Below are positions 10,292 to 32,027 of a stretch of 64,000 bases of DNA, piece after piece. Below the pieces are notes generated by a model. It ran no database searches. It was not told where the DNA came from and was given only the letters and a program-made list of their open reading frames with translations. Position numbers and translations under genes: made by a program. Positions within the stretch are counted from its first letter, which is position 1. Every line of letters begins with the position of its first letter. Origin of the DNA: Brasilonema angustatum HA4187-MV1 (lineage in GTDB: Bacteria > Cyanobacteriota > Cyanobacteriia > Cyanobacteriales > Nostocaceae); contig JAHHGV010000020.1 in NCBI GenBank assembly GCA_019359695.1, positions 1 through 64,000 on the forward strand, read 5' to 3'.

Positions 10292-11551
10292 TCAAGACTC
10301 GCTTGAAACTAAAGATTGTGCTTTGTATGAACCTTTGGTTTCTGGTACCAACATCCAGAAAATAACAGTAGCAACAGCGGCGATCGCAGCCAAGCCAAGA
10401 AAAGCAATATTGTAGCCAGCCTTTTGTACAACAAACCCAGCTAGCAGATTACTCAGACCAGCACCTATACCAATAGCAGTATTTAGTGCCCCTTGTGTGA
10501 TATTAAACCGACCTGTACCTTTAGTTAAATCAGCGACCATGAGTACTGAAAGTACACCAAAAATACCGCCAGCAACTCCATCTAAAATCTGTACAGAAAC
10601 CAAGAAATAAGGATTATCTGTTAGAGTGTAAAGTACACCACGAATTGGCAAGACAGCAAAGCCAAGTAAAAAGACTGGTTTTCTGGCAGCATGTGCAAAA
10701 CGACCAGCCAAGCTAGCAGAAGGAATCATCACTAACTGGGCTACGATGATGCAAGCTGACATATAAAGTGTAGCTCCTGTAGCTTTGCCTTCTGCAAGTC
10801 TCTGACCGACGAGTGGTAACATCGCTGCATTGGCAAAGTGAAACAGAATTACTGCAAGACAAAATAAAAGTATGCGGCGATCGCTGAATAATTGCATAAA
10901 CCCAGAGACTTGATGCCCCTCTTTTTCTGCACTATCCTCATCCTCTTCTTTTGCACCACGCGCTAATTTGTGGTCAATTTCCTTTTCGCGAATCCTCGAG
11001 ACGGCAACTGCGCTAGCCGCCGCCATCGCTGCTACCAGAAAAAAGATACCTTGGCGAGTAATAAAAAAACCTATTAAACCAGCCAAAGTCGCTGCAAGTA
11101 CATTGCCTGCATGATTAAACGCCTCATTGCGACCAACTCGACGATCGAAATTATCATGTCCTACCAGTCCCAAGCTAATAGCAGCGATCGCAGCTGGAAA
11201 CACCGCTGCTGCCAAACCAATTAAAATTTGACCACCAATGACTATCGGAAAAATCGGGAAAAGGGCTATTACGATGCAACCAATAGATACAAGGGTTGCA
11301 GCCACTATAATCAATTCTCGTTTTTGACGCAGTCGGTCTACCAACCCACCTATTGGTGTTTGGGCAATAACTGTTGCAACAGTTGAAGCGGACATTGCAA
11401 TCCCAATATCTACTGGATTCCAATGTTCTGAAGCTTTTAAAAAAATAGCTAGATATGGTCCTACACCATCACGCACATCAGCTAGAAAAAGGTTTAAAAA
11501 ATCGAGTGCTCTTAAACTTTTTTGGCTTGGTTTTCTACTTTTTTCTTGCAT
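10292..11551 (-). CDS. MFS transporter
   Basis: About 419 residues, using the ATG at 11551, which has GGAG eight bases upstream; the longer frame from 11578 has no ribosome-binding site. Twelve hydrophobic segments are visible, split by a charged acidic cytoplasmic loop (AKEEDEDSAEKE) after the sixth. A conserved loop-2 type motif is seen as GGLVDRLRQKR. The family exports or imports small molecules by proton exchange; the substrate cannot be read from the sequence. A DUF2993 gene follows upstream on the same strand after about 170 bases. Confidence 0.85.
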   Translation of the reverse strand: MQEKSRKPSQKSLRALDFLNLFLADVRDGVGPYLAIFLKASEHWNPVDIGIAMSASTVATVIAQTPIGGLVDRLRQKRELIIVAATLVSIGCIVIALFPIFPIVIGGQILIGLAAAVFPAAIAAISLGLVGHDNFDRRVGRNEAFNHAGNVLAATLAGLIGFFITRQGIFFLVAAMAAASAVAVSRIREKEIDHKLARGAKEEDEDSAEKEGHQVSGFMQLFSDRRILLFCLAVILFHFANAAMLPLVGQRLAEGKATGATLYMSACIIVAQLVMIPSASLAGRFAHAARKPVFLLGFAVLPIRGVLYTLTDNPYFLVSVQILDGVAGGIFGVLSVLMVADLTKGTGRFNITQGALNTAIGIGAGLSNLLAGFVVQKAGYNIAFLGLAAIAAVATVIFWMLVPETKGSYKAQSLVSSES

Positions 11552-11722
11552 GAAAATAACTCCGATTACCAAAATCATTTAATCATTGAAAATTAGACCA
11601 GTCTATATCTCTAAAAGTATAGTTTTAGGTTTATTTTTCCTGTATAGCAGTTAAGCTGATACAATCTTTTACTGTTCAAATTTAGTTAAAATACCTCCTT
11701 TTATTACTAAAATTCATAACAA

Positions 11723-12460
11723 TCAGAAGGAAGGAAATTGTTTAAGACGAGCATCTACCAAAAGGAGCATCATCTCTTTTTGTATTTCCATCTTTCTGAT
11801 TTGCAACACGATATCTTCATATTTAAAATATGGTAAGTTTACCAATTCTTTTATTTTTTGCATTAAGGCAACAACCACTTCAAGTGAAACTCCTTCTCCT
11901 TGAGTACAGTTAAAATATTCTAGAATGATAGGTTTATCGTCAGTACGTGGAGAATATTGTGCTGTAAAACTTAATGGACGAGTATTTCCATCCTCTGTTA
12001 ATTTCACTTTTAACGCCACTGTCATTTTGTTATCCTCTAGTAGCTTCATTTGTATCTCCTCTGGATATAAAGAGACAGTTTTACCATCGGCATTAAACTC
12101 AAAGCTTGGCATTTTGCTACGGATAAACTCGGAAGTCATAGCACGGTTAATATCTTTTTCTGTCATGACAACACGAATAGTGATATTAACTGGTTCATTC
12201 AGTTCAACTTGACCAAAGAGAACACTGAATGGATTAACTGCGACATTATCTATTTGCAGCTTGATTTCCTGTATGCGAATATCTTGTTTGACCAATCCCT
12301 GACCTTCAACTGAAACTCCATCTACTAGCCCCTGCAATAACTTCAGAAAATTAGTTTGTATATCTACGTCTATTTTGTCTGCTGTATCTAGCTGTTTAGA
12401 AAGTTGCTTCTCAGCTTCGCGGGAAAGCATTTGTTCTTCTATACGTTGATATTCTGACAT
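11723..12460 (-). CDS. DUF2993 (LmeA-like) lipid-binding domain protein
   Basis: About 245 residues from the ATG at 12460 (the open frame can be extended to a TTG at 12511). The sequence REAEKQLSKQLDTADKIDVDIQTNFLKLLQG followed by VSVEGQGLV is the usual N-terminal part of cyanobacterial DUF2993 proteins. Relatives include the mycobacterial phospholipid-binding LmeA. There is no signal peptide or membrane segment in the frame chosen, so it may be cytoplasmic or membrane-peripheral. The exact role is unknown. Confidence 0.8.
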   Translation of the reverse strand: MSEYQRIEEQMLSREAEKQLSKQLDTADKIDVDIQTNFLKLLQGLVDGVSVEGQGLVKQDIRIQEIKLQIDNVAVNPFSVLFGQVELNEPVNITIRVVMTEKDINRAMTSEFIRSKMPSFEFNADGKTVSLYPEEIQMKLLEDNKMTVALKVKLTEDGNTRPLSFTAQYSPRTDDKPIILEYFNCTQGEGVSLEVVVALMQKIKELVNLPYFKYEDIVLQIRKMEIQKEMMLLLVDARLKQFPSF

Positions 12461-13186
12461 GAGTGAATGATTTCCTAGTATGGTGTCACTGCTTAATTTT
12501 GACGCCAACAACTGAGGAGTGTATCTACATCAGGATATAGAAGATATAAAAAAGCTGAATTTGTTGACTTTCGCCTAGAAAATGTGTTTATTATCTGACA
12601 TCAAATTGAGAAATCATCTTTGCTGTCTCAAGACCTTTTCACAAAAAATGAGGTCATGTAGGACTCATATTTAATTTGTGACTAAGCTAGGTACACTTTC
12701 TGTAAAACTTAAGCGTTATGCGTTCCCTACTTCCACGAGTAAATTCACACTCATCAAACCGGATTCCTATACTTATTTTGCTTTAGTTTATAGCAAAATA
12801 AATTATAATAGGATAAATTCGATTTTCAATCACCTTACTGGTGGTACTTCATTATTAAAGTAGTCTTCTAAATGAGAAATAGGCTTTAAACCGACAGCAT
12901 CTTCAGAGAGTTCTGTTACTAATTATTCATCAAAAGAAACATACATGATTTCCTCATGTACTGTAATATTAGGTGACAAAGAGAACTATAGCAATCCGTG
13001 CAGGAGTTGTAAAATTATTCGTTGAGGTGGGGAACAGAGAACAGGGAAGAAGAATATGCAAATGTACTTTGTTTTTTCACAAATGAAATAGGACTGCTAT
13101 AGTCTATAGTCATGCGTTGAGGGGTCATGAACTTATTCGTTGAGGCGACGCAATTTGCTCTTGTCTTTAAGATTGATTTCCTTTGT
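12461..13186. other. Intergenic region with one MITE
   Basis: No supported gene in about 725 bases. It holds the short inverted-repeat element 12985-13103 and otherwise AT-rich sequence. The small open frames here show no family resemblance. Confidence 0.5.
12985..13103. mobile_element. MITE-like element with ACTATAGCAATCC ends
   Basis: The left end ACTATAGCAATCC and the right end GGACTGCTATAGT are inverted copies with one mismatch, enclosing about 93 bases with no coding capacity. A single similar end (TATAGCAATCCTAT) occurs near 45654, suggesting a family of short non-autonomous elements. Confidence 0.65.
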
Positions 13187-14155
13187 TTAAGGAGCGATTG
13201 CCACATTGCGTTCATTCACCTTTAACGTAGTAGCTTTAATCACCTCACCGTATTTATTGCGAGTACCAAAGCCTTGTACCTGAACTTTGTCACCTACTTG
13301 AGCCGTATTAACAAGTTGATTACCAGCATGAGGTGGAAACTTCACTTGTACTCCCGAAGAAAGAATCACGCCATTAATTTCTCCTCGCTGTCCTACCAAC
13401 CATTGTTGGGCTGTTCCTTCGGCTGATAAATTGCTGTAATCATTGGGGGTAGGTGGAGGTGGGGGTGGTGCATCGGGAGTTGGTTTGTTTGCGATTGTCT
13501 GCTGGGTTTGACGATTGGTGATTTCGTTTGCTTTAATTTCTTGTCCAAAGGGCGTGGATACACCCGTTTTTCCTGTTACGCTGATATCAGTTCCTAAACT
13601 GATTTGTGCAACTAAATTTCTGTTCAGATGTGGTGGAATTTTCACTTGCACTTTATTGTTGAGCAATAACCCATCTACTCTACCTTCAGGGTTGAGCAGG
13701 TATTGCTGAATTTTACCTGTCAATGTAGTAGCATCATTGTCTGGAGGAACTGGTAGTGAATCTGGAGGAGCTGGTAGTGAAGTACTTGCACGACTCTGGT
13801 CGAAATTGCTAGGATTTGGTCGTACCGAACTGATTTCGGACGAACTTGCACTCCAAGCTGGATTTCTGGTCATGGCACTGTAAGCCCATATACTACTGAG
13901 GGCGATCACCACCCCCACAGCTCCACTGCCGAGCATCAGCCGCAGGTTACGCCGCTGTGTTTGATCTTGCATCTGTTTTGCTTGCATCAGTTTTAACGCT
14001 TCCTGAAGAGCCTCTGGTGAAATATTTGCTTCTGCTGCTGCCTGCATCAATTCTGCCGTTGAGTAATCTTGATGTCGCTGCGCGTGTAACTTAGCAGCAA
14101 GGCCAAACACATCAGCAGCCGTTTGACTAGATATACGATCATTAAGGTGATTCAT
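13187..14155 (-). CDS. Membrane-anchored protein with two OB-like repeats; predicted sigma-54 target
   Basis: About 322 residues from the ATG at 14155 (a GTG at 14194 would add 13). An N-terminal cytoplasmic part is rich in Ala/Gln and predicted helical (SPEALQEALKLMQAKQMQDQ). One transmembrane segment follows (MLGSGAVGVVIALSSIWAY), then a Pro/Ser-rich linker and two related beta-rich repeats, VDGLLLNNKVQVKIPPHLN and INGVILSSGVQVKFPPHAG, separated by a polyproline stretch. The repeats resemble small OB-fold nucleic-acid- or ligand-binding domains. It is transcribed divergently from the sigma-54 operon and has a consensus -24/-12 promoter. Function is unknown; an envelope role is inferred. Confidence 0.8.
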   Translation of the reverse strand: MNHLNDRISSQTAADVFGLAAKLHAQRHQDYSTAELMQAAAEANISPEALQEALKLMQAKQMQDQTQRRNLRLMLGSGAVGVVIALSSIWAYSAMTRNPAWSASSSEISSVRPNPSNFDQSRASTSLPAPPDSLPVPPDNDATTLTGKIQQYLLNPEGRVDGLLLNNKVQVKIPPHLNRNLVAQISLGTDISVTGKTGVSTPFGQEIKANEITNRQTQQTIANKPTPDAPPPPPPTPNDYSNLSAEGTAQQWLVGQRGEINGVILSSGVQVKFPPHAGNQLVNTAQVGDKVQVQGFGTRNKYGEVIKATTLKVNERNVAIAP

Positions 14156-14220: not shown

Positions 14221-14237
14221 TGCAAAAATCGTGCCAA
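14221..14237 (-). promoter_or_regulatory. Sigma-54 (-24/-12) promoter
   Basis: On the minus strand the bases read TTGGCACGATTTTTGCA, matching the sigma-54 consensus YTGGCACG-N4-TTGCW at every conserved position, with GG and GC correctly 12 bases apart. The predicted transcription start is near 14210, some 55 bases before the ATG at 14155. It lies beside an rpoN-containing operon. Confidence 0.85.
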
Positions 14238-14313: not shown

Positions 14314-15777
14314 ATGAAACTTCGACGCTGGACACTGCGGCAGCAGCTCACCATCCTGACTATCCTATTTCTAGGTTTGAGCGCGGTAGCATTATTGCTG
14401 TTAGTGCAACTGTTTGAAAGTTTTGAAGGCGCGGTGGTGGCTCATAATCAGCAAGAACTTGCTAAAGCCAACACGCGTTTAATCAAGCTGTTCTGGGAAT
14501 CGAATCTTTTTAAGGGGGGAGTCTCGAAAGGGAACATCAATAGACCTTTAACAGAGCTTTCCACTGAAGTATTGGCGAACTTTGGGCGAGTTGAAGGTGG
14601 CTTTTACCTGTTACAGGGAGATCAGCTTCTGGGCTATGCTTATCCCACACACGGTGGACCTGTGCCCAAAAGCGATATTCCACCAGCTGAACGAGATACA
14701 ATTCTCCAACTGGCACGACGGGCAACGAGTCAAGGATTGCCTCAAGAATTCGTCCTGCGTCCTAAGCTGGACGTTGTGGTGGTGCGCGCAGATCCTCTGC
14801 CACTTTGGGGAGCGGTATGGACAATGAAGCGGATACCTCGCACAGAGGACAGCCAGCAAAAAATTCTTAGCGTACCAGTTGTCTTGGGAATGTTGGTGGT
14901 TGGTTTTTGGACTTTTGCCATTGCGCTCCAGCTACAGTGGGGTGTGCAACGGCTCCAGCAGAGCATTAAGGCAATGGAAGCAAATCAGGCAAATCAAATT
15001 CCACCCCTACCTGCCGAGATGGGAATGTTGGGAGACGCCATCAATACAATGCAGTCCCGTCGTCAAGAGTTAGAGCAGCGTCTGCATCGCGTGGAACGAC
15101 TGGCTTCACTAGGACAGTTAGTAGCGGGTGTTGCTCACGAAATCCGCAATCCCCTGGCTAGTATGCGTTTGAATTTGCAGTACACTGATCGGCAACTGCG
15201 AAAGCAAGGCTTAACTACATTGCCTATTGATAGTCTCTTAGAACAAGTAAACCGTCTGGAGCATCTTGTACAAAGACTTTTATATTTTGACAAAAATCAG
15301 CAGCAGGAGGCTTTAGCTCTGACATCGCTAGAGAACATTGTCTTGGAATCTGTCTCGCTGTTGCGTCTCAAAGCTGAAGAACAGGGGGTAGACCTAGTTT
15401 ACCAAGCTCCCGCCCACCCAATGCCAGAAATTTCTCTGCGTCGTCGCGAACTGGGACAAGTGATGGTCAATTTAATTCTCAACGCCATTCAAGCCAGTCC
15501 TGAAGGAGAACAGGTGACGGTAGGAGTGGAAGAGGAGTTAGGCGCTCAAAGTCAGCAAAAAGAGCGTTACTTTGTGGCTTGGGTAAAAGATAAAGGACCT
15601 GGTTTACCGCCAGAAGAGCAAGAACGCATTTTTGACCCGTTCTACTCCACCAAACCAGAAGGAACAGGACTGGGACTCTCAATCAGTCATGAGATTGTAA
15701 CTCGACATGGAGGATATATCCAGGTGGAATCATCTCTAGGAAAGACACGATTTAGTGTTTTCTTACCTTACGACTAA
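14314..15777 (+). CDS. NtrB/AtoS-type sensor histidine kinase of the sigma-54 module
   Basis: About 487 residues from the ATG at 14314. A first membrane segment (residues about 10-32) and a second around 190 (VPVVLGMLVVGFWTFAIAL) enclose an extracytoplasmic sensor domain of about 150 residues. The kinase core has the H-box VAGVAHEIRNPLASMR, the N-box LILNAIQAS and the G-boxes DKGPGLPPEEQERIFDPFYS and GTGLGLSIS. The type and the position directly before an NtrC-like gene indicate the cognate partner. About 216 bases filled with palindromic repeats separate it from the regulator gene. Confidence 0.9.
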   Translation: MKLRRWTLRQQLTILTILFLGLSAVALLLLVQLFESFEGAVVAHNQQELAKANTRLIKLFWESNLFKGGVSKGNINRPLTELSTEVLANFGRVEGGFYLLQGDQLLGYAYPTHGGPVPKSDIPPAERDTILQLARRATSQGLPQEFVLRPKLDVVVVRADPLPLWGAVWTMKRIPRTEDSQQKILSVPVVLGMLVVGFWTFAIALQLQWGVQRLQQSIKAMEANQANQIPPLPAEMGMLGDAINTMQSRRQELEQRLHRVERLASLGQLVAGVAHEIRNPLASMRLNLQYTDRQLRKQGLTTLPIDSLLEQVNRLEHLVQRLLYFDKNQQQEALALTSLENIVLESVSLLRLKAEEQGVDLVYQAPAHPMPEISLRRRELGQVMVNLILNAIQASPEGEQVTVGVEEELGAQSQQKERYFVAWVKDKGPGLPPEEQERIFDPFYSTKPEGTGLGLSISHEIVTRHGGYIQVESSLGKTRFSVFLPYD

Positions 15778-15815
15778 CGCAAAAACTCTCTCAAACTTTT
15801 ATTTCTTTGTGTCCT

Positions 15816-15930
15816 ACCCTGCGGGAAGCCACTAGCCCCTAAGGGGCAAAGCAACCTTCGGTTCGCTAGCCCCGGAGGGGGCGCTGCGCAAACGCTAACG
15901 CCGGGGGGATACTCCCCCCGGCAGACTTTG
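15816..15930. repeat. Cluster of palindromic repeats between kinase and regulator
   Basis: Consecutive stems can be read in this stretch, including TAGCCCCTAAGGGGC, CAACCTTCGGTTCG, AGCCCCGGAGGGGGC and CCGGGGGGATACTCCCCCCGG, interspersed with GCGCAAACG. The same vocabulary occurs in the insertion at 18993-19045 and near 34810-34850. They would form strong RNA hairpins inside the operon transcript. Confidence 0.8.
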
Positions 15931-15993
15931 GAGCTGCGCAAACGTGTCTATGCGGTTCATTTTCTCTTCCAAATTTCTCATGCAAAATTAAAA

Positions 15994-17175
15994 ATGGCTA
16001 AAATCCTAATTATTGATGATGAAAGAGCACTGCGGCAGGCGATCGCCCAAATTCTTCAAGATGAAGGATATGAGGTGCTGCAAGCGGCAGATGGAGAGCA
16101 GGGTTTGAAGATCCTGTTGGACAACACAACTCATCCTGATCTCGTCTTTCTGGATTTGAAGATGCCCAAAACCCAAGGAATCGCAGTCCTAAAAACTCTC
16201 GAACAAAGACTGTTTGAGTTACCTGTGATTGTCATGACTGCTTATGGTACCAGTCGCACAGCAATTGAAGCCATGCAGTTGGGTGCTTACGATTACCTGA
16301 CCAAACCTTTTGATTTAGAAGACTTAGTTAATATCACCCAAAAGGCACTTGCGCATCACCAAGAACCTGTGTATCAAATGGGGGAGTCGGACTTGCAGAG
16401 TTTGGAGCAGTCAGACGAGTTATTGGGGCGATCGCTCGCTATGCAAGAAGTCTTCAAACTCATCGGGCGGGTTGCTCCAGGAAACACCACTGTTCTAATC
16501 ACAGGAGAGTCGGGCACTGGTAAAGAATTAGTTGCTTCCACACTCCATACTACCAGTCCTCGTCGTAAAGGACCGTTGGTGAAGGTTAACTGTGCCGCCC
16601 TCCCAGAACATTTGCTAGAAGCTGAATTATTCGGACACGAAAAAGGTGCTTTCACCGGAGCGAATCACCTGCGAATTGGTCGATTTGAACAAGCAAACGC
16701 TGGTACAATTTTTCTCGATGAAGTTGGGGAACTCAGCCCTGTTATTCAGGGTAAGCTGTTGCGTGTCTTACAAGACCACTCATTTGAACGGCTGGGAAGT
16801 AACCAAACTCGTACCGTAGATGTACGGATTCTCGCTGCTACGAATCGGAATTTAGAGCAAATGGTTAAGCATAACCAGTTTCGGGAAGATCTATATTACC
16901 GCTTCAACGTAGTCCGGATTGATATGCCACCATTGCGCGATCGCCCGGAAGATCTTCAACAGCTAACCCAGTACTTTTTGAGTACGATCGCTTTGCGCCG
17001 AGGACTCAAGCGCTTGGCACTCACAATGGCAGCAATGGAAAAACTCACAAGCTACCATTTTCCTGGAAATGTGCGCGAGTTGCAAAACACACTCGAACGT
17101 GCTGCCGTGCTTTCTGGTGGACGTGCTATTTTACCAGAGCATCTGATATTGAGTCAACAATCACAACCAGAGTAG
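15994..17175 (+). CDS. NtrC-family sigma-54 activator lacking a DNA-binding domain
   Basis: About 393 residues from the ATG at 15994, where the receiver domain begins (KILIIDDERALRQAI). The receiver's phosphoacceptor Asp lies in LVFLDLKMP and its Lys in YLTKPF. The AAA+ domain has Walker A GESGTGKE, the sigma-54-contacting loop GAFTGA, Walker B GTIFLDEVGEL and the arginine-finger region. The protein stops soon after FPGNVRELQNTLERAAVLSGG, where NtrC proteins (about 470 residues) continue into a Fis-type HTH. It therefore belongs with HTH-less activators such as FlgR of Helicobacter and the chlamydial CtcC, which act from solution where only one activator exists. The rpoN gene starts 12 bases downstream. 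Confidence 0.92.
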   Translation: MAKILIIDDERALRQAIAQILQDEGYEVLQAADGEQGLKILLDNTTHPDLVFLDLKMPKTQGIAVLKTLEQRLFELPVIVMTAYGTSRTAIEAMQLGAYDYLTKPFDLEDLVNITQKALAHHQEPVYQMGESDLQSLEQSDELLGRSLAMQEVFKLIGRVAPGNTTVLITGESGTGKELVASTLHTTSPRRKGPLVKVNCAALPEHLLEAELFGHEKGAFTGANHLRIGRFEQANAGTIFLDEVGELSPVIQGKLLRVLQDHSFERLGSNQTRTVDVRILAATNRNLEQMVKHNQFREDLYYRFNVVRIDMPPLRDRPEDLQQLTQYFLSTIALRRGLKRLALTMAAMEKLTSYHFPGNVRELQNTLERAAVLSGGRAILPEHLILSQQSQPE

Positions 17176-17187
17176 GAGCAGAAAATC

Positions 17188-18564
17188 ATGTCTGCACTTA
17201 TATCCACACCTTCGGTAGAAACCCATTTAGAGACTCAAGCAGTCCTTTATCCAAGCTTGCGCTATCTCGTGCAACTGCTGCCCTTGGATCATCGACGGGT
17301 TATTAAGCATCTGAGAAATGAAGTTGAACAAAATCCCTTTTTGCGTCGCACGACGAGTTCTGGCAATGGAGAAACTCTGGTGTCAGATGTTTTACCAGAT
17401 TGGTATACTCCAACAGCAGCAGAACTTAGTCTTCAAGAACATCTGCAAGGACAAATTTCAGCCCTCAACCTATCCTCTCGGCAGCAAAAAGCTTTACTTT
17501 ACTTGATTCAATGGTTGTCTCCATCTGGCTACTTGGAAGAATCACCGCAAGTTTGGGCGGCGGGTAGTGGGTTTTCTGTCAGTGAACTAGAAGCTGTGAT
17601 TCCTGATTTGCAACGTCTGGATCCACCGGGAATTGGTGCGCGATCGCTTCAAGAATGTTTGTTGTTGCAACTTCCGGATCAACCCGAAAATTTAGCTAGA
17701 CTATTAGTCCAGGATTATTTAGAGGAGATCGCAGCTTGTGTCGGCAATTCCACTGATGCAAAATTTTACCGAGAAACCCTACTGCAAAAGCTACGGCAGA
17801 CTAGATCTAGTCTTGATTCAGAAACACTCGGTAGTACTATTCGCCAGATTCAAACGCTAGAACCTCGACCAGCCAGGAACTTTAGTCACACTCCTGCACC
17901 AATTGTCACCCCCGATTTAAAAGCGGAACCTTATGCAGGCGGTTGGCAAGTTATGTTGGCTTACGAGATGAGTCGAGATTTGTGCCTTGATGAGGAAGCT
18001 GTTGCTGTTCTCAACCGTTCACATCGTAAAACCAAAGAAACTCAACGGCTGGAAGTTCTGTTGCAAAAAGCTCGTTCTTTGCTTACCGCATTGAACCAAT
18101 GGCAAGATAATCTCCTCAAAGTGGGAGAGTTTTTGGTTGATCGTCAACAAGCTTTTCTTTCAAGTCGAGACGCATTGGATCTCGTTCCTACACCACAACA
18201 AATGGTTGCTCAAGCGGTGGGACTCTCAAATGCAACTATCAGTCGAATTGTGCGCGAGCGATATCTGTTAATTAGTGGACAACCAAGCCAGATTGTACCA
18301 TTACAAAAGCTTTGCACACCTGCTCGTGTTGGTGGACACACACCACAACAAATACAGCAGTTCATCCAGCAACTGATTCAAGAAGAATCTCCTGTAAAGC
18401 CTTATAGTGATGAGCAATTAGCACAGCTGATTAAGCTGCGATTTGGTTTACCCATCGCTCGTAGAACTGTGACCAAGTACCGCAAAATGGCAGGTGTTGA
18501 TTCATCTAGTCGTCGTAAGATGCCCTTCGGGCAGGGTGTAATATCAAATCCGGTATGCATCTGA
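17188..18564 (+). CDS. rpoN: RNA polymerase sigma-54 factor RpoN
   Basis: A 458-residue protein with all three sigma-54 parts. The N-terminal activator-interaction region has LRNEVEQNPFL near residue 45. The core-binding region includes LSLQEHLQGQISALNL and the signature LDPPGIGARSLQECLLLQL. The C-terminal HTH (TPQQMVAQAVGLSNATISRIV) is followed by the RpoN box ARRTVTKYRKMAGV. These contact polymerase and the -12/-24 promoter elements. GGAG precedes the ATG. Length matches typical RpoN (about 430-500). Cyanobacteria are classically described as lacking sigma-54, so its presence beside a cognate activator and kinase is remarkable and suggests acquisition of a complete module. Confidence 0.93.
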   Translation: MSALISTPSVETHLETQAVLYPSLRYLVQLLPLDHRRVIKHLRNEVEQNPFLRRTTSSGNGETLVSDVLPDWYTPTAAELSLQEHLQGQISALNLSSRQQKALLYLIQWLSPSGYLEESPQVWAAGSGFSVSELEAVIPDLQRLDPPGIGARSLQECLLLQLPDQPENLARLLVQDYLEEIAACVGNSTDAKFYRETLLQKLRQTRSSLDSETLGSTIRQIQTLEPRPARNFSHTPAPIVTPDLKAEPYAGGWQVMLAYEMSRDLCLDEEAVAVLNRSHRKTKETQRLEVLLQKARSLLTALNQWQDNLLKVGEFLVDRQQAFLSSRDALDLVPTPQQMVAQAVGLSNATISRIVRERYLLISGQPSQIVPLQKLCTPARVGGHTPQQIQQFIQQLIQEESPVKPYSDEQLAQLIKLRFGLPIARRTVTKYRKMAGVDSSSRRKMPFGQGVISNPVCI

Positions 18565-18812: not shown

Positions 18813-19811
18813 ATGCCTGCTCCCTACTCAAATGATCTACGCCAACGCGTAATTGATGCTTATACAGCGTATGATGGGTCACTTCGACAACTTGCAGACC
18901 GCTTTAAAGTGAGCTTATCGTTTGTCCAACGGTTGATTCGTCGCTATCGAAACATAGGACAAGTGATTCCAAAACCTCATGCAGGTGGAGCGATTCCTAG
19001 CCCCTAAGAGGGGCGCTACGCAAACGGAGAGCTTCGCTTAACGCTAAAATTACAGTCGAGAAATTATCAACAGTGCAGCAGCTAGTAGATGAACAACCGG
19101 ATGCCTTACTAGAAGAATTGTGCGAGCGTTTGGCGAAACGGAATGGGATTACTGTCAGCATCTCAACCATGCATCGTGCAGTTCAACGCTTAGGGTTGAC
19201 CACTAAAAAAAACACTGTATGCCAGTGAGCAAGACAGCCCACGAGTCTCTAAGATGCGCTTTGAGTATAGGGATTGGGTATTGAACGTTGACCCGCACAA
19301 TTTGGTATTTGTAGACGAGTCAGGTCTAAACTTAGGAATGACACGACTCTATGGACGTGCAGAACGTGGTGAGCGGTTGTACGATTCTTGCCCCCGGAAT
19401 CGAGGAAAAAACATATCGTTAATTGGGGCGTTGAGTTTGGACGGACTCATTGCCACCATGAGTATTCCAGGCAGTGTTAACACCGACGTTTTTATAACTT
19501 ACATTCAAGAGATTTTAGCGCCACAGCTGTGGAAGGGAGCAGTCGTAGTAATGGATAATCTGTCGGTGCATCAAGCCCAGGCAATTCGAGATGTCATTGA
19601 GGCTGTCGGTGCACGGGTTGTCTTTCTACCCCCTTATTCACCGGATTTGTCCCCCATTGAATTGTGTTGGTCAAAACTCAAACAGTGTTTGCGTGCTGCA
19701 AAAGCTCGAACTTACGAGTCATTTAACCAAGTTTTAACGCAAATTGTTACTGAGCAAATTTCGTCCGATGATGCTTGGGGCTGGTTCGCTCACTGTGGTC
19801 TATTCATTTGA
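18813..19811 (+). pseudogene. IS630-type transposase, interrupted and frameshifted
   Basis: The N-terminal HTH part (PYSNDLRQRVIDAYTAYDG and RFKVSLSFVQRLIRRYRN) ends at a stop brought in by a palindromic insertion at 18993-19045. The frame resumes as KITVEKLSTVQQLVDEQPDA to RLGLTTKK. A shift at eight A bases (about 19205-19212) is then needed to reach the DDE domain from LYASEQDSPRVSK, with VFVDESGLNL, VVVMDNLSVH and LPPYSPDLSPIELCWSKLK. A slip at the A-run may be the family's programmed frameshift. The insertion should inactivate the gene. Confidence 0.85.
18993..19045. repeat. Palindromic repeat inserted in the transposase
   Basis: A 53-base stretch containing TAGCCCCTAAGAGGGGCGC, ACGCAAACG and GAGAGCTTCGC separates codons that are contiguous in the family. 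It introduces an in-frame TAA. The same motifs occur at 15816-15930. Confidence 0.75.
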
Positions 19812-23808: not shown

Positions 23809-24438
23809 CTATAAACTGACAATGCCGCGTTTGACGGCAACAATCACAGCTTGGGTGCGATCGCTCACATCTAACTTATTCAAGATCCGATTTACATGAG
23901 ATTTAACAGTACCTTCACCGATACTCAAAGCAGCCGCAATTTCGGCATTACTCATCCCCTGTGCCATTGAACGGAGTACTGTCAGTTCTCTTTCACTTAG
24001 TTCTGGATTGCTGAGGCGCTGTACCAACTTTGCTCCCACATCAGGCGGAATATACTGCTGACCTCGATGAACAGTACGAATGGCATTCAGCAGCTCGTCG
24101 GGTTCAGTTTCTTTCAACAGGTATCCTTTTGCTCCTGCCTGCAATCCCCGATAAATATCTTCGTCACTATCATATGTTGTCAGTACAATAATCCGAGCAG
24201 ATTTAGCGGTAGCACGAATTGCACCGATGGCGGCAACTCCTTCAACTTCAGGCATTCGGAGATCCATTAGCGTTACATCCGGTTGGTGTTCCCGAAATAA
24301 GGCGATCGCCTGTTCCCCATTTTCTGCTTGCGCAATCACCTTCATATCTGGATCACGGTTAATAATCGTGGCTAATCCTTGCCGAAAAATGGAATGATCG
24401 TCCGCAATCAGAACCCGAATCGTCGTGGCTTGGCTCAT
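23809..24438 (-). CDS. NarL/LuxR-family response regulator
   Basis: About 209 residues from the ATG at 24438, which has GGGAG just upstream. The receiver domain begins RVLIADDHSIFRQGL, with phosphoacceptor Asp in VTLMDLRMP and Lys in YLLKETEP. The C-terminal LuxR HTH reads LSERELTVLRSMAQGMSNAEIA and VKSHVNRILNKLDV. The start lies seven bases beyond the stop of the large kinase at 24446-30745, so the two form a two-component pair expressed as one unit. Confidence 0.92.
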   Translation of the reverse strand: MSQATTIRVLIADDHSIFRQGLATIINRDPDMKVIAQAENGEQAIALFREHQPDVTLMDLRMPEVEGVAAIGAIRATAKSARIIVLTTYDSDEDIYRGLQAGAKGYLLKETEPDELLNAIRTVHRGQQYIPPDVGAKLVQRLSNPELSERELTVLRSMAQGMSNAEIAAALSIGEGTVKSHVNRILNKLDVSDRTQAVIVAVKRGIVSL

Positions 24439-24445
24439 CGTGATG

Positions 24446-27400
24446 CTACTCCCGATTGACGGTGACAATAATCTCTGTTCCTTGCCCAGGTTGACTCCTA
24501 ATCGTCAGTTGTGCGCCGATGCGCTCTGCCCGTTCGCTCATGCCTAATAAGCCAAAACCATTAGAGGATGGAACACTCCCAACTCCAAAGCCCTGCCCAT
24601 TGTCTTTCACGCGCAAGCAAAACCGATCACGATCATATACTAGCTCCACTCGAATTTCGTCAGCATTGGCGTGTCTGATAACATTGGTCAATGCTTCCTG
24701 CCCAATTCGCAGTAGGTTACTCTCTAGTTCAGTGGGTAGAGAATACACTGCACCCTTGATTTCATAATATAAAGTGGTATCAGTTGCGGCAGATCTGATT
24801 TGAGTCACCAGACGATGTAGAGCACTCTGTAAACTGCCCTCCTCCAAAAGCTGAGGACGGAGCGCTACCACCGATCGCCGCGCTTCAATCAGTCCAGTTC
24901 GCGCCAATTCTTTGATCAGGTCTAGATGTGCCTGAGTTGCTTCTAAATCATCCGTTAGTACCTGATTTGCAGCTCCCACCTGAGCCAGAATGCCTGTAAA
25001 CGCCTGAGCGAGTGTGTCGTGAATTTCGCGTGCCATGCGGTTGCGTTCTTCCAAAATTGAGGCGGCTTCTGCTTGCTTAAGAGCCGTAATATCTCGCGAC
25101 AGCCAAATCACCTGCTCGTGCCGAATCGGTGCAATGCGCGCCGAAAGCCAGGTTTCTCGTCCACCCGTCCACTGACTGTATTCAACTGTAAGTACTTGTT
25201 GGGTTCTCAGCACCTGCTGAATGTAATTTAGGAATTCATCGGCTTGTGCTTTTTCAAAAATCTGGTGCAGTGTTTTACCAATACATGTGTCTTCCTCAAT
25301 GGGTCTATGCAACTTTCCTTCGACCATTTCGATTATTTGCCCTTCAGCAGTGAGGACACACAGCAGATCGGGAATGGCTGAAACGAGTGCCCGCAGTTCT
25401 GCCTCTGAGGCTTGCAACGCTATTTCTGCTTGCTTGCGATCAGTAATATCTGCAATCACTCCTTCTATGCATTCATCGGCTGCATTCAGACGAGAGGAGT
25501 AAAGTCCCCAAAACGGTGTGCAATCTCGTTTTCGCATCTGTGCGGCAAAGCTTCGCACTTCCCCATCACGCTTCAGCAACTCAATGGCTTGTTGGCGATC
25601 GCACTGATTTACATAGTAGCCTGTGGTGTGTTCAAGCCCAATGATCTGCTCTGGTGAATCAAAGCCAAACAGATTTGCAAAGCGTTGATTGGCATCGAGA
25701 ATTAATCCATCACAGATGCGGGTTCGGTAGATGCCGACCTGCGAGTTTTCAAAGATAGTTCGGAACTTGGCTTCACTGCGTTGTAAGGCCTCTTCTGCTT
25801 GTTTACGCTGGGTGGTGTCATTTCCAACCGATAAGATTTCAACTAAGTCTCCCTGTTCATTTAAGATTGCTTGATTCGACCAGGCAAGCCAAACTCGCCT
25901 ACCGTCTCGACACAGGTTTTCACCCTCGCCTTGCGGGTACGATTTAGGATTGCGAAGTAAATCGTGGATAAATGGTCTGACATCGCGTCCAGAGGTTTCG
26001 ATTTCTGGAACGATCGTTTCGAGTAAGGTCCGCCCTAAAATCTGATGTTCTTCATAGCCAAGGAATTTCACCCCATAATCGTTGATGTATCGAATCCGTC
26101 CTTGCGGATCATAGCGAATGATGACTGAATTCGCGGTTTGTAACAGGTTGCGATAATTCGCTTCACTTTGTCTCAATGCGGCTTCGGTTTGTTGACGTTC
26201 AGAGATTTCCTGCTGTAAGGCTTGAGTTCGCTCTTCTACCTTCCTTTCCAGTGTTTCGGCATAGTCTGCTAAGCGTTCATACAACCGAGCATTTTCTAGT
26301 GAAATCGCTGCCTGAGCAATCAACAGTTTGAGGACTTGTAAGCGATCGCTGGAAAACACTCCAGTACTGAGATTGTTTTCCAAATAAAGAACGCCGATAA
26401 GCTGACTTTGCTTGAGAATTGGCATACAGAGGAGCGATCGCGTCTGTTTGTGTTGAATATAAGGATCATTCAAAAAAGACGGTTCGTTGACTGCATCATC
26501 AAGCACCAGAGTGTCTTGAGTGCGTTCTACCGAGTGAATGACGGAGACAGAAATTGTTGAACAGTCAGCAATAGTAACCTTTTCTAGGTGGTACTGTCTA
26601 CTCCCACTGCACTGAGCCACCACAGTAAGCTGATCGTCTTCTGAGAGAATTAGAGCGCCTGTTTCGGCTCCGGCATTTTCTATCACCACCTGCATCAACG
26701 TAGCCATTAATTGATCGAGATGGATCATTTCTGAGAGGGCTTGAGCCGCTTTCATCACCGCAGCCAAATCGATCGCCGCAGTCGGACGACGGATCGTTTC
26801 ATCGGTCAAGATTGAATTCGATTGCCGAATCAAGTTGGAATTGAGTAGTTGTGGATAGCGTTTTTCTAAGTCTTTAACTTTAGCTATTGCGCCCCAGCGA
26901 CCATAGCAGCAGTGCGCCTCTTTCATGTAGGTTTGGGCAATTTTTTCCCGACCTCGCCCCAGATAATGTTTAGCCGCTAATTCATACGCTAATGCTTCTT
27001 CCTGGATAAACTCATTTTCAGAAGCGCCTGCGATCGCTCGTTCATAAAACTCTTCAGCCTCAAAGAACTGCCCTAAGACTCGCGCTTTCTCTGCCTCAAC
27101 CAGATGATATTTATGCAAATAATTCATCGGAGCGTGTTCTGCCCATTTTCGCATCTTCGCTTGGTTGGCGTTAACACGGCTCATCCAAGCTACTTTTTCA
27201 GAGCTTGAAGCATCAAATAACAGGCTCAAAAGCACCAGAGAATCATAAAAAAGAAACAGCATTTCTATTACATCTTCTGAAGCCTGCTTTGCAAAGTCAG
27301 CAGTTTGTGCAGCTTGATGATACTCTCCAAATAGATAACATAGTATCAGTTTGTTTAAGCAAAAGTAGTGGATTTCAGTGCTGTTCTTAATTGCAGTAGC

Positions 27401-30400
27401 ATGCAATAGCGCTTGCTCTTCATCATATACACTTCCCACTAAGCAACTGGGATTCTCAGATCTACCTAACAAATTGAGGATTGTCTGCCAAAGTACTGCA
27501 ATCCAATTCAAGGAAGTTTTCCGTCTGATTTGCCTGATTGCTTTGCTGTAGCTTGCCGTTTTATTTTCCAGTTGGGTGAGTTCATCCCCGGCAAAAAATC
27601 TGTAACAACAAATATTACAGGCAGCATAGCTTGCAAATTCAAAGTCTCCAGTTTCCACGCCGTTTTGATAAGCATCAACTAGAATTGGTATTGTTTTCCT
27701 AAAATGCACCTTTGAGGGCATGATATTGGCACTAAATATCGTTAATGTTTTACTTCTCCCTTCTTGGATATTTGATCGTTCTGTCAGACTTAGAGCCAAT
27801 TGGCCAAATTTATAGCCAAGTTCGATGTCTTGAACCACTGCACCTAGAACAACTCCGTAGCTAGCATAACTCAAGGGTGACCAGGTAGCGTTGCCATAAT
27901 TGAGTGATAAATCTACCATTTTGCACACAATCAGTATCATCACTGCTGGTGACACCATAGAAGCAGTAACCGCAATATTAGTCAGAATATTCATTGCCGC
28001 GAGCGGCTCTAGTGCGGTCATTCTCGGTAGATTAATTAAGTCTTCAATTTCTCGTCCAGCGAGTAGTGCAGCCGTTTCCTCCAATCTGCTTTGAACATCT
28101 AACTGACTTGGAGTTTCTATCAAGGGCACTACCAAGAGCTTTAATACTGCCAAGCCAAGTTCAAGGGCTTCTTCTGAGTTGCCCTGTGACAAATATCCTT
28201 GAATTCTGGTATCATAAACCTGCACTTTGTCAACTACTGTCTTCGCATGATCGAGTACCACTTCTACGAAGTGTTCCATTTCACTAAAGCGACCGTGAAG
28301 ATATGCCGCTCCTGCAGCTTCTGAGTACAGCGCTAAGGTGAGGTCATACTCACTCTGCCAACTCTCTGGATTGAGGAGTTTCAGTCCTGTAGTGAAATAT
28401 TTAAAAGCTGCTTCATAAGCCGTTGCTGCCTTTGCTTTCTGTCCTGCCATTAAATTCAATCTGGCAATTTCAGTTCGTTCTGGTTGAGCAGTGACTAGTT
28501 CAACCCCATGATTAAAATGATCGACAATGGCAAATAGTCGATCAGATCGTTGCTCTTGTGAAGTTTTTTCGAGTAAATTGTGACCGATTTGGAGATGAAC
28601 AGCTTGTTTCTGCAACTCATCAATCAAAGCATAAGCAGCTTGCTGGACGCGATCATGCAAAAACTTATACTCTTGAACTAACAAGTTTTCATCTAATTCT
28701 GACACAGGTTGAATCAATCCAGCTTGGATGGCTGCTACTAAATCTTGGAAAATCGCTTTAGGTGATTTTTCGCAAACGATCGCCAACGTCTCTAAATCAA
28801 ATTCAGCTCCAACACAAGCCGCTAGGCAAAAAATTTGCTGTGTTGCTTCTGGTAATTTCTGCAACTGACGCAGCAGCAACTCCACCACATTATCCGTGAT
28901 CTCTTGAGCTTCAATCTCAGCCAAGTTCCATTGCCAGCTCAACTGTTGTGCATTAAAGGTCAACAGATTTTCGCCATACAGCAGCTTCAAAAATTCACCG
29001 ACAAAGAAAGGGTTGCCCTCGGTTTTACGTGACACAGCTTGGGCTAGGGAACGAACTGTATCAGGATTGTGATGTAATGTCTCAGCTATCAGTTGGCTTA
29101 ACGGTTCCAGTGTTAAGGGAGTCAGAATGATTTGCTGAAGCATTGCTCCCTGGTTCCGTAGTTTCTTTAGCGTCAAAACCAATGAATGCGTTGGAGTCAC
29201 TTCGTTGTCTCGGTAGGCTCCGATCAAAAATAGATATTGGGTTTGCTCGTCGAGCAAGATGAGTTCAATTAACTTCAGCGTCGCAAAATCGATCCACTGT
29301 AGATCGTCTAAGAAGATCACCAGGGGATGCTCTTTTGCACAAAACGCCCGCACAAATCGTTGAAACGTTAGGTTGAAGCGATTCTGGGCTTCCGTTGCTC
29401 CAACTTCTGGTGCGGGCAACTGCTTGCCAATGATTAACTCAACTTCCGGAATGACATCAATGATGATTTGTCCATTGCTGCCCAAAGCGGTAAGCAGGCG
29501 CGATCGCCACTGTTGCACTTGCTCGTCCGGTTCCCCCAGAAGTTGCTGCACCAACTTTTGCAGGGCATCCACAATGGCGCTGTAGGGAATATTGCGCCTG
29601 AATTGGTCAAATTTACCCGATATGAAATAGCCGTGCTTTGCTGTGATGGGTTTATAGAGTTCTTGCACCAATGCTGTTTTGCCAACGCCAGCGTAACCAG
29701 CAACGAGCATGAGTTCGACATTGAATTGAGCATTTTCTATGCCTTCCTCTAGTTGACAAATTTCCCCAAACGTCTCTTTTCTAGCCACTCTGTCAAACGC
29801 CGCCAATAATGCTTTAGTCTCCGCTTCTCGTCCATACAGTTTTTGAGGAATGCAAAACTGTTCTGAAACATCTTGCAGTCCCAACGACATGGCGTTAATC
29901 TGACCCATTTCTGTCAGTTGTTGAGCGCAGCGTTCTAGATCAGCTTTGATGCCCCAGGCACTTTGATAGCGATCCTCCGCATTTTTCGCCATCAGTTTCA
30001 AAATCAGGTCTGAAACGGGTTGGGGAATCGTCGCGTTCAATTCGTGCGGGGGAATCGGTGGTCTGGCAATGTGACAGTGAACTAGCTCCAGGAGATCTAT
30101 AGTGGGAAACGGCAATTGTCCCGTCAACAGTTCGTAGAAGGTTACGCCCAGCGAGTAGAAATCGGTGCGATAGTCGAGCATCCGGTTCATCCGCCCAGTT
30201 TGCTCTGGCGACAAATAGGCGGGGGTTCCTTCCAGAAGATGGAGACTTTTGAACGTGGGATTGGTGCGGCTGAAGCGAGTCGCAATTCCAAAATCAATGA
30301 TTTTAACAACGCCAGTCCTTGGATTAAAGACAATGTTGCCGGGATTGATATCTTTATGAATGACATGAGCAGCATGGATTCTACCCAGAATCTCTGTAAT

Positions 30401-30745
30401 GGCGATCGCCATATCCAAAAAAATCGACAAGGGCATGGGACAGAAATCTGATTGCTGCCGCATCGAAGATTCCAAAGACTCTCCGCCAAAGTCTTCTAGA
30501 AGGATGAAGAGCGTGCGCTGATAGTTCTGCTGGCTGTATGCCTTAACTACGCCTTCGATGTTAAGGGAACGGGTAATTTCATATTCCTGCCGATAACGAG
30601 TTAATTCCTGAGAAGAAGGATAATCCTGCTTCAGAACTTTAGCGATGACTGCACAATTCTGCCGCTCTCTTATGCCCCGATACACTAGAGAAACCGAACT
30701 TTCATAGATTTTGCTGTGGATGGTAACTCCGGGTAAGGCAATCAT
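24446..30745 (-). CDS. Ser/Thr kinase-AAA-GAF-PAS-histidine kinase
   Basis: A 2099-residue signalling protein. Residues about 10-275 are a Ser/Thr kinase with HKDINPGN and the DFG motif (IIDFGIATRF). An AAA-16 ATPase follows (VAGYAGVGKTALVQ near 350, LVIFLDDLQWID), then a long TPR-like helical region. A GAF domain lies at about 1390-1540 and a coiled segment leads into three PAS repeats, with YLEN and RKQAEEAL markers. The C-terminus is a HisKA_3 kinase: ERNRMAREIHDTLAQAFTGIL carries the His, and DNGQGFG and GLLGMSERA belong to the ATPase. Cyanobacteria often carry such trifunctional kinases. The cognate NarL-type regulator is directly downstream. Confidence 0.93.
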   Translation of the reverse strand: MIALPGVTIHSKIYESSVSLVYRGIRERQNCAVIAKVLKQDYPSSQELTRYRQEYEITRSLNIEGVVKAYSQQNYQRTLFILLEDFGGESLESSMRQQSDFCPMPLSIFLDMAIAITEILGRIHAAHVIHKDINPGNIVFNPRTGVVKIIDFGIATRFSRTNPTFKSLHLLEGTPAYLSPEQTGRMNRMLDYRTDFYSLGVTFYELLTGQLPFPTIDLLELVHCHIARPPIPPHELNATIPQPVSDLILKLMAKNAEDRYQSAWGIKADLERCAQQLTEMGQINAMSLGLQDVSEQFCIPQKLYGREAETKALLAAFDRVARKETFGEICQLEEGIENAQFNVELMLVAGYAGVGKTALVQELYKPITAKHGYFISGKFDQFRRNIPYSAIVDALQKLVQQLLGEPDEQVQQWRSRLLTALGSNGQIIIDVIPEVELIIGKQLPAPEVGATEAQNRFNLTFQRFVRAFCAKEHPLVIFLDDLQWIDFATLKLIELILLDEQTQYLFLIGAYRDNEVTPTHSLVLTLKKLRNQGAMLQQIILTPLTLEPLSQLIAETLHHNPDTVRSLAQAVSRKTEGNPFFVGEFLKLLYGENLLTFNAQQLSWQWNLAEIEAQEITDNVVELLLRQLQKLPEATQQIFCLAACVGAEFDLETLAIVCEKSPKAIFQDLVAAIQAGLIQPVSELDENLLVQEYKFLHDRVQQAAYALIDELQKQAVHLQIGHNLLEKTSQEQRSDRLFAIVDHFNHGVELVTAQPERTEIARLNLMAGQKAKAATAYEAAFKYFTTGLKLLNPESWQSEYDLTLALYSEAAGAAYLHGRFSEMEHFVEVVLDHAKTVVDKVQVYDTRIQGYLSQGNSEEALELGLAVLKLLVVPLIETPSQLDVQSRLEETAALLAGREIEDLINLPRMTALEPLAAMNILTNIAVTASMVSPAVMILIVCKMVDLSLNYGNATWSPLSYASYGVVLGAVVQDIELGYKFGQLALSLTERSNIQEGRSKTLTIFSANIMPSKVHFRKTIPILVDAYQNGVETGDFEFASYAACNICCYRFFAGDELTQLENKTASYSKAIRQIRRKTSLNWIAVLWQTILNLLGRSENPSCLVGSVYDEEQALLHATAIKNSTEIHYFCLNKLILCYLFGEYHQAAQTADFAKQASEDVIEMLFLFYDSLVLLSLLFDASSSEKVAWMSRVNANQAKMRKWAEHAPMNYLHKYHLVEAEKARVLGQFFEAEEFYERAIAGASENEFIQEEALAYELAAKHYLGRGREKIAQTYMKEAHCCYGRWGAIAKVKDLEKRYPQLLNSNLIRQSNSILTDETIRRPTAAIDLAAVMKAAQALSEMIHLDQLMATLMQVVIENAGAETGALILSEDDQLTVVAQCSGSRQYHLEKVTIADCSTISVSVIHSVERTQDTLVLDDAVNEPSFLNDPYIQHKQTRSLLCMPILKQSQLIGVLYLENNLSTGVFSSDRLQVLKLLIAQAAISLENARLYERLADYAETLERKVEERTQALQQEISERQQTEAALRQSEANYRNLLQTANSVIIRYDPQGRIRYINDYGVKFLGYEEHQILGRTLLETIVPEIETSGRDVRPFIHDLLRNPKSYPQGEGENLCRDGRRVWLAWSNQAILNEQGDLVEILSVGNDTTQRKQAEEALQRSEAKFRTIFENSQVGIYRTRICDGLILDANQRFANLFGFDSPEQIIGLEHTTGYYVNQCDRQQAIELLKRDGEVRSFAAQMRKRDCTPFWGLYSSRLNAADECIEGVIADITDRKQAEIALQASEAELRALVSAIPDLLCVLTAEGQIIEMVEGKLHRPIEEDTCIGKTLHQIFEKAQADEFLNYIQQVLRTQQVLTVEYSQWTGGRETWLSARIAPIRHEQVIWLSRDITALKQAEAASILEERNRMAREIHDTLAQAFTGILAQVGAANQVLTDDLEATQAHLDLIKELARTGLIEARRSVVALRPQLLEEGSLQSALHRLVTQIRSAATDTTLYYEIKGAVYSLPTELESNLLRIGQEALTNVIRHANADEIRVELVYDRDRFCLRVKDNGQGFGVGSVPSSNGFGLLGMSERAERIGAQLTIRSQPGQGTEIIVTVNRE

Positions 30746-31530: not shown

Positions 31531-31974
31531 CTATTGTGGTGCAGGAGGTGGAGGAGCTACTTCATTTCTTCCACGTGCAGGAGGTGGGGGCGGAGCATTC
31601 CGTCCATCTGGTCTGGGAGCCATTGCTGGCCCTTGATCTGGGCGAGGACCCTTCTTTCCTAGTCGTTCTCCTCGCTTATGTGGAGGACGTGGCGCTTGAG
31701 CTTCGTAAGAACCGTTATAAGGAGGTTCTGTAAATATACCTGGTCGAGGATTTTGTACTCTCGGATTAACATCTGGTCGGGGCACTAGTCGTGCTCCTGG
31801 CGCTCCTGGTGATGCTGGTGGTGGGGAAGAGTTATCTGGTGAAGTAAAAGTTTGTACATCTTGAGGCTGTGGTTGAGCAAATGCGGGAGTTTCCACGGCG
31901 ATCGCCAAACTACTCACAGCCAGAACTAAGAATACACCTAAACGACCTGACTGATATTTTGCTGGTTGAAACAT
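31531..31974 (-). CDS. Secreted proline-rich protein; predicted sigma-54 target
   Basis: 147 residues. The N-terminus has a clear signal peptide (GRLGVFLVLAVSSLAIA, cleavage likely after AFA). The mature part is low-complexity, dominated by Pro, Arg, Gly and Ala (PRPPHKRGERLGKKGPRPDQ and PAPPPPP-like runs), with no Cys. It is probably an exported, disordered cell-envelope or surface protein. A sigma-54 promoter lies at 32011-32027, about 26 bases from the expected transcription start to the ATG. No database family is recognised; the function is unknown. Confidence 0.75.
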   Translation of the reverse strand: MFQPAKYQSGRLGVFLVLAVSSLAIAVETPAFAQPQPQDVQTFTSPDNSSPPPASPGAPGARLVPRPDVNPRVQNPRPGIFTEPPYNGSYEAQAPRPPHKRGERLGKKGPRPDQGPAMAPRPDGRNAPPPPPARGRNEVAPPPPAPQ

Positions 31975-32010: not shown

Positions 32011-32027
32011 TGCAAAAATCATGCCAA
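32011..32027 (-). promoter_or_regulatory. Second sigma-54 (-24/-12) promoter
   Basis: The minus strand reads TTGGCATGATTTTTGCA, identical to the promoter at 14221-14237 except for one base, including the four non-conserved spacer bases. GG and GC are correctly spaced, and the predicted start is near 32000. No other site of this quality was found by eye in the window. Confidence 0.82.

Follow-up and report, generated by a model that had tools for sequence, protein, structure and literature searches.

Results

A kinase-activator-rpoN row in Brasilonema

In the present study, we analyzed the first 64,000 nucleotides of contig JAHHGV010000020.1 from the cyanobacterium Brasilonema angustatum HA4187-MV1 (the window), in which a sensor histidine kinase, an activator with the GAFTGA motif, and RpoN (sigma-54) are encoded in a row on one strand, with 12 bases separating the latter two genes (Table 1). 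An earlier note on this DNA had described this arrangement and the RpoN box ARRTVTKYRK, both of which were confirmed; its description of the control module as complete does not hold for the activator, from which a C-terminal DNA-binding domain is absent. The window RpoN was the single PF04552 match in the whole 8.5-Mb assembly, and the activator was the sole strong match among nine to Sigma54_activat in this genome (E 2.4e-71; next 2.7e-15).

Table 1. Features of the sigma-54 locus, numbered from the first base of the window.
Feature	Position	Strand	Basis or remarks
MFS transporter	10292..11578	-	Pfam; own -24/-12 element in most relatives, none in Brasilonema
LmeA-like lipid-binding protein	11723..12511	-	Pfam; same order in L044 and L045
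Two-OB-fold protein, putatively membrane-anchored (predicted target)	13187..14155	-	A GTG start would lengthen the open reading frame (ORF) to 14194
-24/-12 promoter element TGGCACGATTTTTGCA of the divergent OB-fold gene	14221..14236	-	Upstream of the OB-fold gene in 19/19 loci holding it
Sensor histidine kinase	14314..15777	+	Pfam HisKA 4e-12, HATPase_c 9.2e-24; aligned with 22 relatives; AlphaFold model
Sigma-54 activator: receiver, AAA+ (GAFTGA) and lid, without DNA-binding domain	15994..17175	+	Pfam (Response_reg E 2.3e-32, Sigma54_activat E 3.8e-71), alignments, C-termini
RpoN (sigma-54), 458 aa	17188..18564	+	Pfam (Sigma54_CBD E 1.9e-38, Sigma54_DBD E 1.4e-30), NCBIfam, PDB alignment, tree
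Small proline-rich protein, 147 aa, secreted (signal peptide by eye; predicted target)	31531..31974	-	36 bases after TGGCATGATTTTTGCA
Second -24/-12 element TGGCATGATTTTTGCA	32011..32026	-	Similar element upstream of this gene in L044 and L045

Regarding RpoN, the core-binding domain (PF04963) scored 132.5 bits against a cut-off of 22.9 and the DNA-binding domain (PF04552) 106.6 bits against 22.8. Aligned through the family profile, the protein was colinear with solved RpoNs (chain 8f1i_M, E 3.8e-48), and R425, R426, T427, K430, Y431, and R432 of the RpoN box were invariant across 19 aligned rows. The nearest named relative found was that of Brasilonema sp. CT11, with 93% identity. The kinase consists of an N-terminal helix, a sensor region at approximately residues 35-180, and the HisKA and HATPase_c domains. 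In its AlphaFold model (mean pLDDT 69.5; sensor region mostly near 80), the sensor is a predicted alpha/beta domain that looks Cache/PAS-like by eye, and no Cache sensor was found by title among the 50 Foldseek matches listed.

The ratio of nonsynonymous to synonymous substitution rates (dN/dS) between Brasilonema genomes took values of 0.05-0.10 (activator), 0.10-0.14 (kinase), 0.19-0.21 (RpoN), and 0.21-0.28 (OB-fold protein); the single pair compared for the proline-rich protein gave 0.54. Judging from their low dN/dS, the kinase, activator, and RpoN are under selection.

An activator without a DNA-binding domain

The Brasilonema activator stops at residue 393, after the AAA+ lid. The motifs of its receiver and AAA+ domains were invariant in 19 aligned rows, with GAFTGA, the Walker motifs, and the phospho-acceptor intact. 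With a receiver, an AAA+ domain carrying GAFTGA, and no D domain, it corresponds to group 5 of the bacterial enhancer-binding proteins (bEBPs) and not to group 1, the members of which (NtrC, ZraR) carry a C-terminal helix-turn-helix (HTH)/Fis domain. Eleven of the 23 activators read, including that of the window, end after the lid, the one at L054 with 17 unrelated extra residues (G and L numbers are our labels for genomes and loci). Since all 11 belong to one 12-row RpoN group holding Brasilonema (88/97 support, not starred), whose twelfth member, G485, has an activator outside the 23, comparisons of these sequences suggest that the DNA-binding tail was lost one time in the clade containing Brasilonema.

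A shared enhancer upstream of the promoters was searched for by comparing two promoters of one genome with eight plain shuffles per pair, and no common upstream sequence above the shuffles was found in 12 of the 15 pairs. In the divergent intergenic region of the tail-less group, the only long conserved block was the core promoter with a few upstream bases.

Conserved -24/-12 elements

The element TGGCACGATTTTTGCA is near-invariant upstream of the OB-fold gene, while most of the surrounding intergenic DNA varies. With one mismatch allowed, the promoter motif had 9 matches in the window, whereas shuffles averaged 6.4 and 9 was reached in 21 of the 100 made; motif matches alone are weak evidence for promoters, and the two in the window stand above chance because such elements are conserved across relatives. 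The earlier note had based functionality on intact motifs and two matching promoters; both promoters are exact, and what supports them is this comparative evidence.

With a hand-weighted consensus, we scored the DNA around each start, from 200 bases before it to 30 bases after it, broken loci (L056, L058, and L065) included. An element was present near the start of 19/19 OB-fold, 14/20 MFS, and 9/23 kinase genes, and of 0/24 activator, 0/27 RpoN, 0/15 permease, and 5/236 other genes; four of these five count as candidate targets themselves, each being either a secreted proline-rich gene or a paralogue of the OB-fold gene. The six MFS genes with no scored element were three from Brasilonema, which stand behind the OB-fold gene, and those of L054 (element 190 bases away, out of the scored range), G125, which is decayed, and L166. 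The distance from the element to the chosen start codon was mostly 26-85 bases, with a range of 8-125 and one case of 190; elements were also found before MFS genes away from the cassette, on other contigs (L096, L107, and L111) or approximately 0.7 Mb off (L124).

At the genome level, TGGCAYRNNTTTTGCW matched 85 times in the 21 genomes that carry this rpoN, including two whose copies are broken (reversed-pattern control, 8), and 20 times in 18 family members without it (control, 4). Sorted by hand, 48 of the 85 preceded an OB-fold, MFS, kinase, or proline-rich gene, 6 a YdcZ gene, 27 were inside ORFs, and 4 were elsewhere in intergenic DNA. Nineteen of the 20 matches in rpoN-minus genomes were inspected: 16 were inside ORFs and none preceded an OB-fold, MFS, kinase, or proline-rich gene. 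Five of the nine matches in the genome of the window were inside ORFs, and the other four stood at plausible promoter places, before the OB-fold gene, the proline-rich gene, an MFS-permease pair on contig C24, and a YdcZ gene.

Candidate target genes

The model of the OB-fold protein showed two OB-like domains with most blocks near pLDDT 90 (whole model, 66.6), and its best Foldseek rows were single-strand DNA-binding proteins (best E 1.2e-4; query TM-score <=0.20). The LmeA-like gene, after an uncertain gap of approximately 675 bases, possibly lies downstream in the OB-fold transcription unit, and a CitMHS/ArsB-like permease gene is found near the MFS or OB-fold gene. No family was found for the proline-rich protein of the window; its proline-rich counterparts follow such elements in L044, L045, L047, and L168-L170, and a further counterpart, in a reading frame of L166, lies 155 bases after one. 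In three genomes of family f3, the element precedes a gene for a secreted PPPPKG-repeat protein. This gene opens a same-strand row in which genes for a methyltransferase, a TonB-type receptor barrel, and the kinase, activator, and RpoN follow; positive feedback is, therefore, likely in these genomes from the gene arrangement. An OB-fold paralogue in L054 (16062-16817, minus strand) has its own -24/-12-like element 33 bases upstream.

The OB-fold and MFS genes were mostly missing where a usable rpoN is missing. Among 30 family members without a usable rpoN (32 searched, with G495 and G501 left out), the OB-fold gene was full-length in one (G391) and partial in one (G400), the MFS gene was present in two (G386 and G389, broken in the latter), and no element was found before the copies in G391, G386, and G389. 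In G501, the rpoN of which is broken, an MFS gene with a perfect element persists, as expected of a fresh rpoN loss. A DMT_YdcZ gene had an element 118-119 bases upstream in six genomes of two genera. This gene was found in 4 of 18 genomes searched, all rpoN-positive, while other rpoN-positive genomes lack it; it is 94% identical between the two genera and was left as a weak candidate because the site may reflect mere recent descent.

Distribution and origin

The profile search proposed in the earlier note (PF04552, PF04963) found the same rpoN in further cyanobacterial genomes, the samples of which overlap. PF04552 matched in 12 of 386 sampled cyanobacteria, two matches being of this kind and one of them a remnant (G125, a C-terminal piece only); ten further genomes gave weak, partial matches that were left uncounted, with G224 passing the cut-off at 23.1 bits. 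In the class sample of 388, G000 and G125 alone were found. Three of seven genomes of the genus have this rpoN. Among 217 genomes of the family Nostocaceae, PF04963 matched in 22, namely, 19 intact copies, two broken copies (G495 and G501), and G451, such that this rpoN is present in 21; G125 is outside the 22. The order sample (10/388 with the family profile) added four f3 genomes and one f6 genome, all five with the same kinase-activator-RpoN row; the profile match in G792 (L166) counts one TGA, but nearly all of this RpoN is contained in an open frame of 468 aa. The rpoN of G451 (L049), on a 20-kb contig (C25), is 67% identical to Xanthomonas RpoN and, from this similarity, is probably contamination. 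Gene order was common to the 27 neighborhoods compared, and flanking content was little shared between genera.

A tree was built with six plasmid-borne outgroups from Pseudomonadota and Bacillota, in which the 24 intact cyanobacterial RpoNs formed one clade with 100/100 support and a stem measuring 2.31 changes per site; the program warned of long branches. The donor phylum was not resolvable with these outgroups. Within the clade, genus g7 and family f3 each appeared at more than one place. Because of this scatter and the different flanking genes between genera, the cassette would have been transferred among cyanobacteria and lost many times. The earlier note had left open a transferred module or an overlooked lineage-specific system; the latter fits well, and the former would fit as an exchange among cyanobacteria.

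Other features of the window

Transposase remains, which we take to be IS630-like, lie directly after rpoN (18820-19811, plus strand) and comprise a DDE_3 open frame (19254-19811) and, as read by eye, a second part upstream of it, from which it is set off by a short repeat element. A dispersed short repeat resembling CTAGCCCCTAAGGGGC was seen by eye in the kinase/activator gap (15820-15940) and in the transposase remains (19000-19045). On the minus strand, a gene for a HopA1-family domain protein (828-1964; PF17914, 2.3e-59) has a chance-like TGGCACTGCTGCTGCT upstream, and a gene for a protein of 2099 residues, kinase-like in its N-terminal part and histidine kinase-like in its C-terminal part (24446-30745), adjoins a response regulator-like gene (23809-24468), both assigned by eye.

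Discussion

As judged from sequence comparisons, a sigma-54 module is conserved in a cyanobacterium, and we consider it likely that it represents a small, self-contained, enhancer-independent two-component cassette that moves as a unit together with its regulon of envelope and transport genes. The conserved -24/-12 elements lend indirect support to the predicted binding of this RpoN to core polymerase and -24/-12 DNA. In the mechanism proposed, the membrane kinase would sense something outside the cytoplasm and phosphorylate the activator, which would form a ring and, acting from solution with no enhancer, remodel the closed complex of RpoN and polymerase. The OB-fold membrane protein, the MFS transporter with the CitMHS/ArsB-like permease, and the small secreted proline-rich protein would then be switched on, and the kinase-activator-RpoN operon may also activate itself in some relatives. 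The cassette would be passed on by inheritance, move between cyanobacteria, and disappear as a unit. The DNA-binding domain of the activator seems to have decayed, which we propose occurred because a single activator acts on every sigma-54 promoter in the genome. We lean, by a narrow measure, toward the wider view that sigma factor, enhancer-free activator, sensor, and targets form one transmissible unit and provide some cyanobacteria with a second, private transcription system, the tail having been lost once in the Brasilonema clade after the regulon had shrunk to a few promoters.

Several observations weigh against this interpretation. Region I of RpoN (PF00309) was weak, at 19.7 bits against a cut-off of 23.8, although this region could be aligned to a solved RpoN by means of the family profile (11 bits), and the NCBIfam model TIGR02395 gave 253.4 bits over residues 15-444, below its cut-off of 277.35, which is a curation threshold for naming and not a biochemical feature. 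The element weights were set by hand, and in Brasilonema the kinase operon and the adjoining MFS gene have no element. In G485, the kinase and OB-fold genes lie approximately 130 kb from rpoN, the block being split, and in G531 they are on a contig other than that of rpoN. Counts of the general consensus TGGCACN5TTGCA were 13, 10, and 12 in rpoN-positive Brasilonema and 9, 6, 10, and 8 in rpoN-minus Brasilonema, with no clear enrichment. A wide sigma-54 regulon based on this consensus was rejected on these near-background counts; since the consensus is about as common without rpoN, the regulon would be small, and the motif alone proves nothing. Moreover, 12 of the 23 activators carry a Fis-like C-terminal tail of approximately 45 residues (by eye, a shortened Fis domain), which, from its sequence, may still bind DNA, and in 3 of the 15 promoter pairs the upstream similarity exceeded that of the shuffles, in two cases through A/G-rich runs.

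The tail leads to the explanation that the activator still uses enhancers, either through a partner protein or with the tail functioning in relatives and another route in Brasilonema. A tail conserved in this manner is probably used; however, no HTH_8/Fis Pfam match was obtained at E 0.1 in the two tail-bearing proteins tested, most promoter pairs share nothing upstream beyond the shuffles, and the tail-less group conserves as a long block only the core promoter and its immediate upstream bases, such that we regard enhancer use as unlikely. An explanation to which we assign still less weight, and which we consider improbable, is that what has been conserved is a site of a different kind from a sigma-54 promoter, such as an operator, travelling with the same genes. 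The link between the element and RpoN is one of sequence, and a T run in the middle of the element is conserved beyond the sigma-54 consensus; on the other hand, GG and GC are correctly spaced, the element mostly keeps its 26-85-base distance from the start codon, it stays with MFS genes away from the cassette, and it was not found before the OB-fold and MFS copies of the three rpoN-lacking genomes described above.

The patchy distribution and the Xanthomonas-like rpoN of G451, which looks like contamination, may appear to favor a recent proteobacterial transfer or contaminant DNA with no working role. This explanation is largely refuted and, in our estimation, extremely improbable: cyanobacterial RpoNs are only 26-31% identical to plasmid-borne RpoNs among the matches listed, the 24 rows form a single, fully supported clade on a long stem, and dN/dS is low, with gene order and promoters conserved. 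Contamination of the window itself, which the earlier note had named as a refuting outcome, was rejected because its rpoN is the sole PF04552 match of the assembly and has copies in genus and family genomes with shared neighborhoods in a single clade; it lies on a 148-kb contig and the same genes occur in many genomes.

Among known systems, the activator of the self-contained cassette favored here may be compared with FlgR of Helicobacter, presumably the only such activator in its host, and with CtcC of Chlamydia. Both are known group 5 bEBPs, which likewise combine a receiver with AAA+ and no DNA-binding domain (PMC7175178, PMC7482065), and Chlamydia has one activator (PMC3162934). The present cassette differs in that it belongs to large-genome cyanobacteria, with the activator in a row with rpoN and beside likely targets. 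Since its relatives keep a Fis-like tail, the loss appears to be separate from that in FlgR and CtcC. Regarding AtoSC-, ZraSR-, and NtrBC-type systems, the best NCBIfam matches were AtoS for the kinase (241.7 bits) and NtrC and AtoC for the activator (451.8 and 440.7 bits), all under curated cut-offs, and the best plasmid-borne relatives were 47% identical among the matches listed; in contrast to these systems, the Brasilonema activator has no Fis domain and rpoN lies within the row.

Sigma-54 has been stated to be missing from cyanobacteria in several papers (PMC2758279, PMC3162934, PMC11119718), in line with the classical description given in the earlier note, while a 2025 paper names rpoN genes in Gloeocapsa PCC 7428 and Leptolyngbya O-77; cyanobacterial sigma-54 had, thus, already been reported, with no operon, activator architecture, or regulon given in the passage concerned (PMC12316311). 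No earlier description of the cassette was found by title or abstract start among open-licence papers. What is new here is the tail-less Brasilonema activator, the near-invariant element before the candidate targets, the general lack of the OB-fold and MFS genes without a usable rpoN, and the flanks that vary from genus to genus. In the present study, sigma-54 is found in a whole cyanobacterial clade, under selection and coupled to a probably tiny regulon that can be tested. Related organisms in which the activator occurs with and without its tail would present an example from nature of how a bEBP loses the part that binds enhancers. As a sigma-54 switch indigenous to cyanobacteria, the cassette could also serve the engineering of these organisms.

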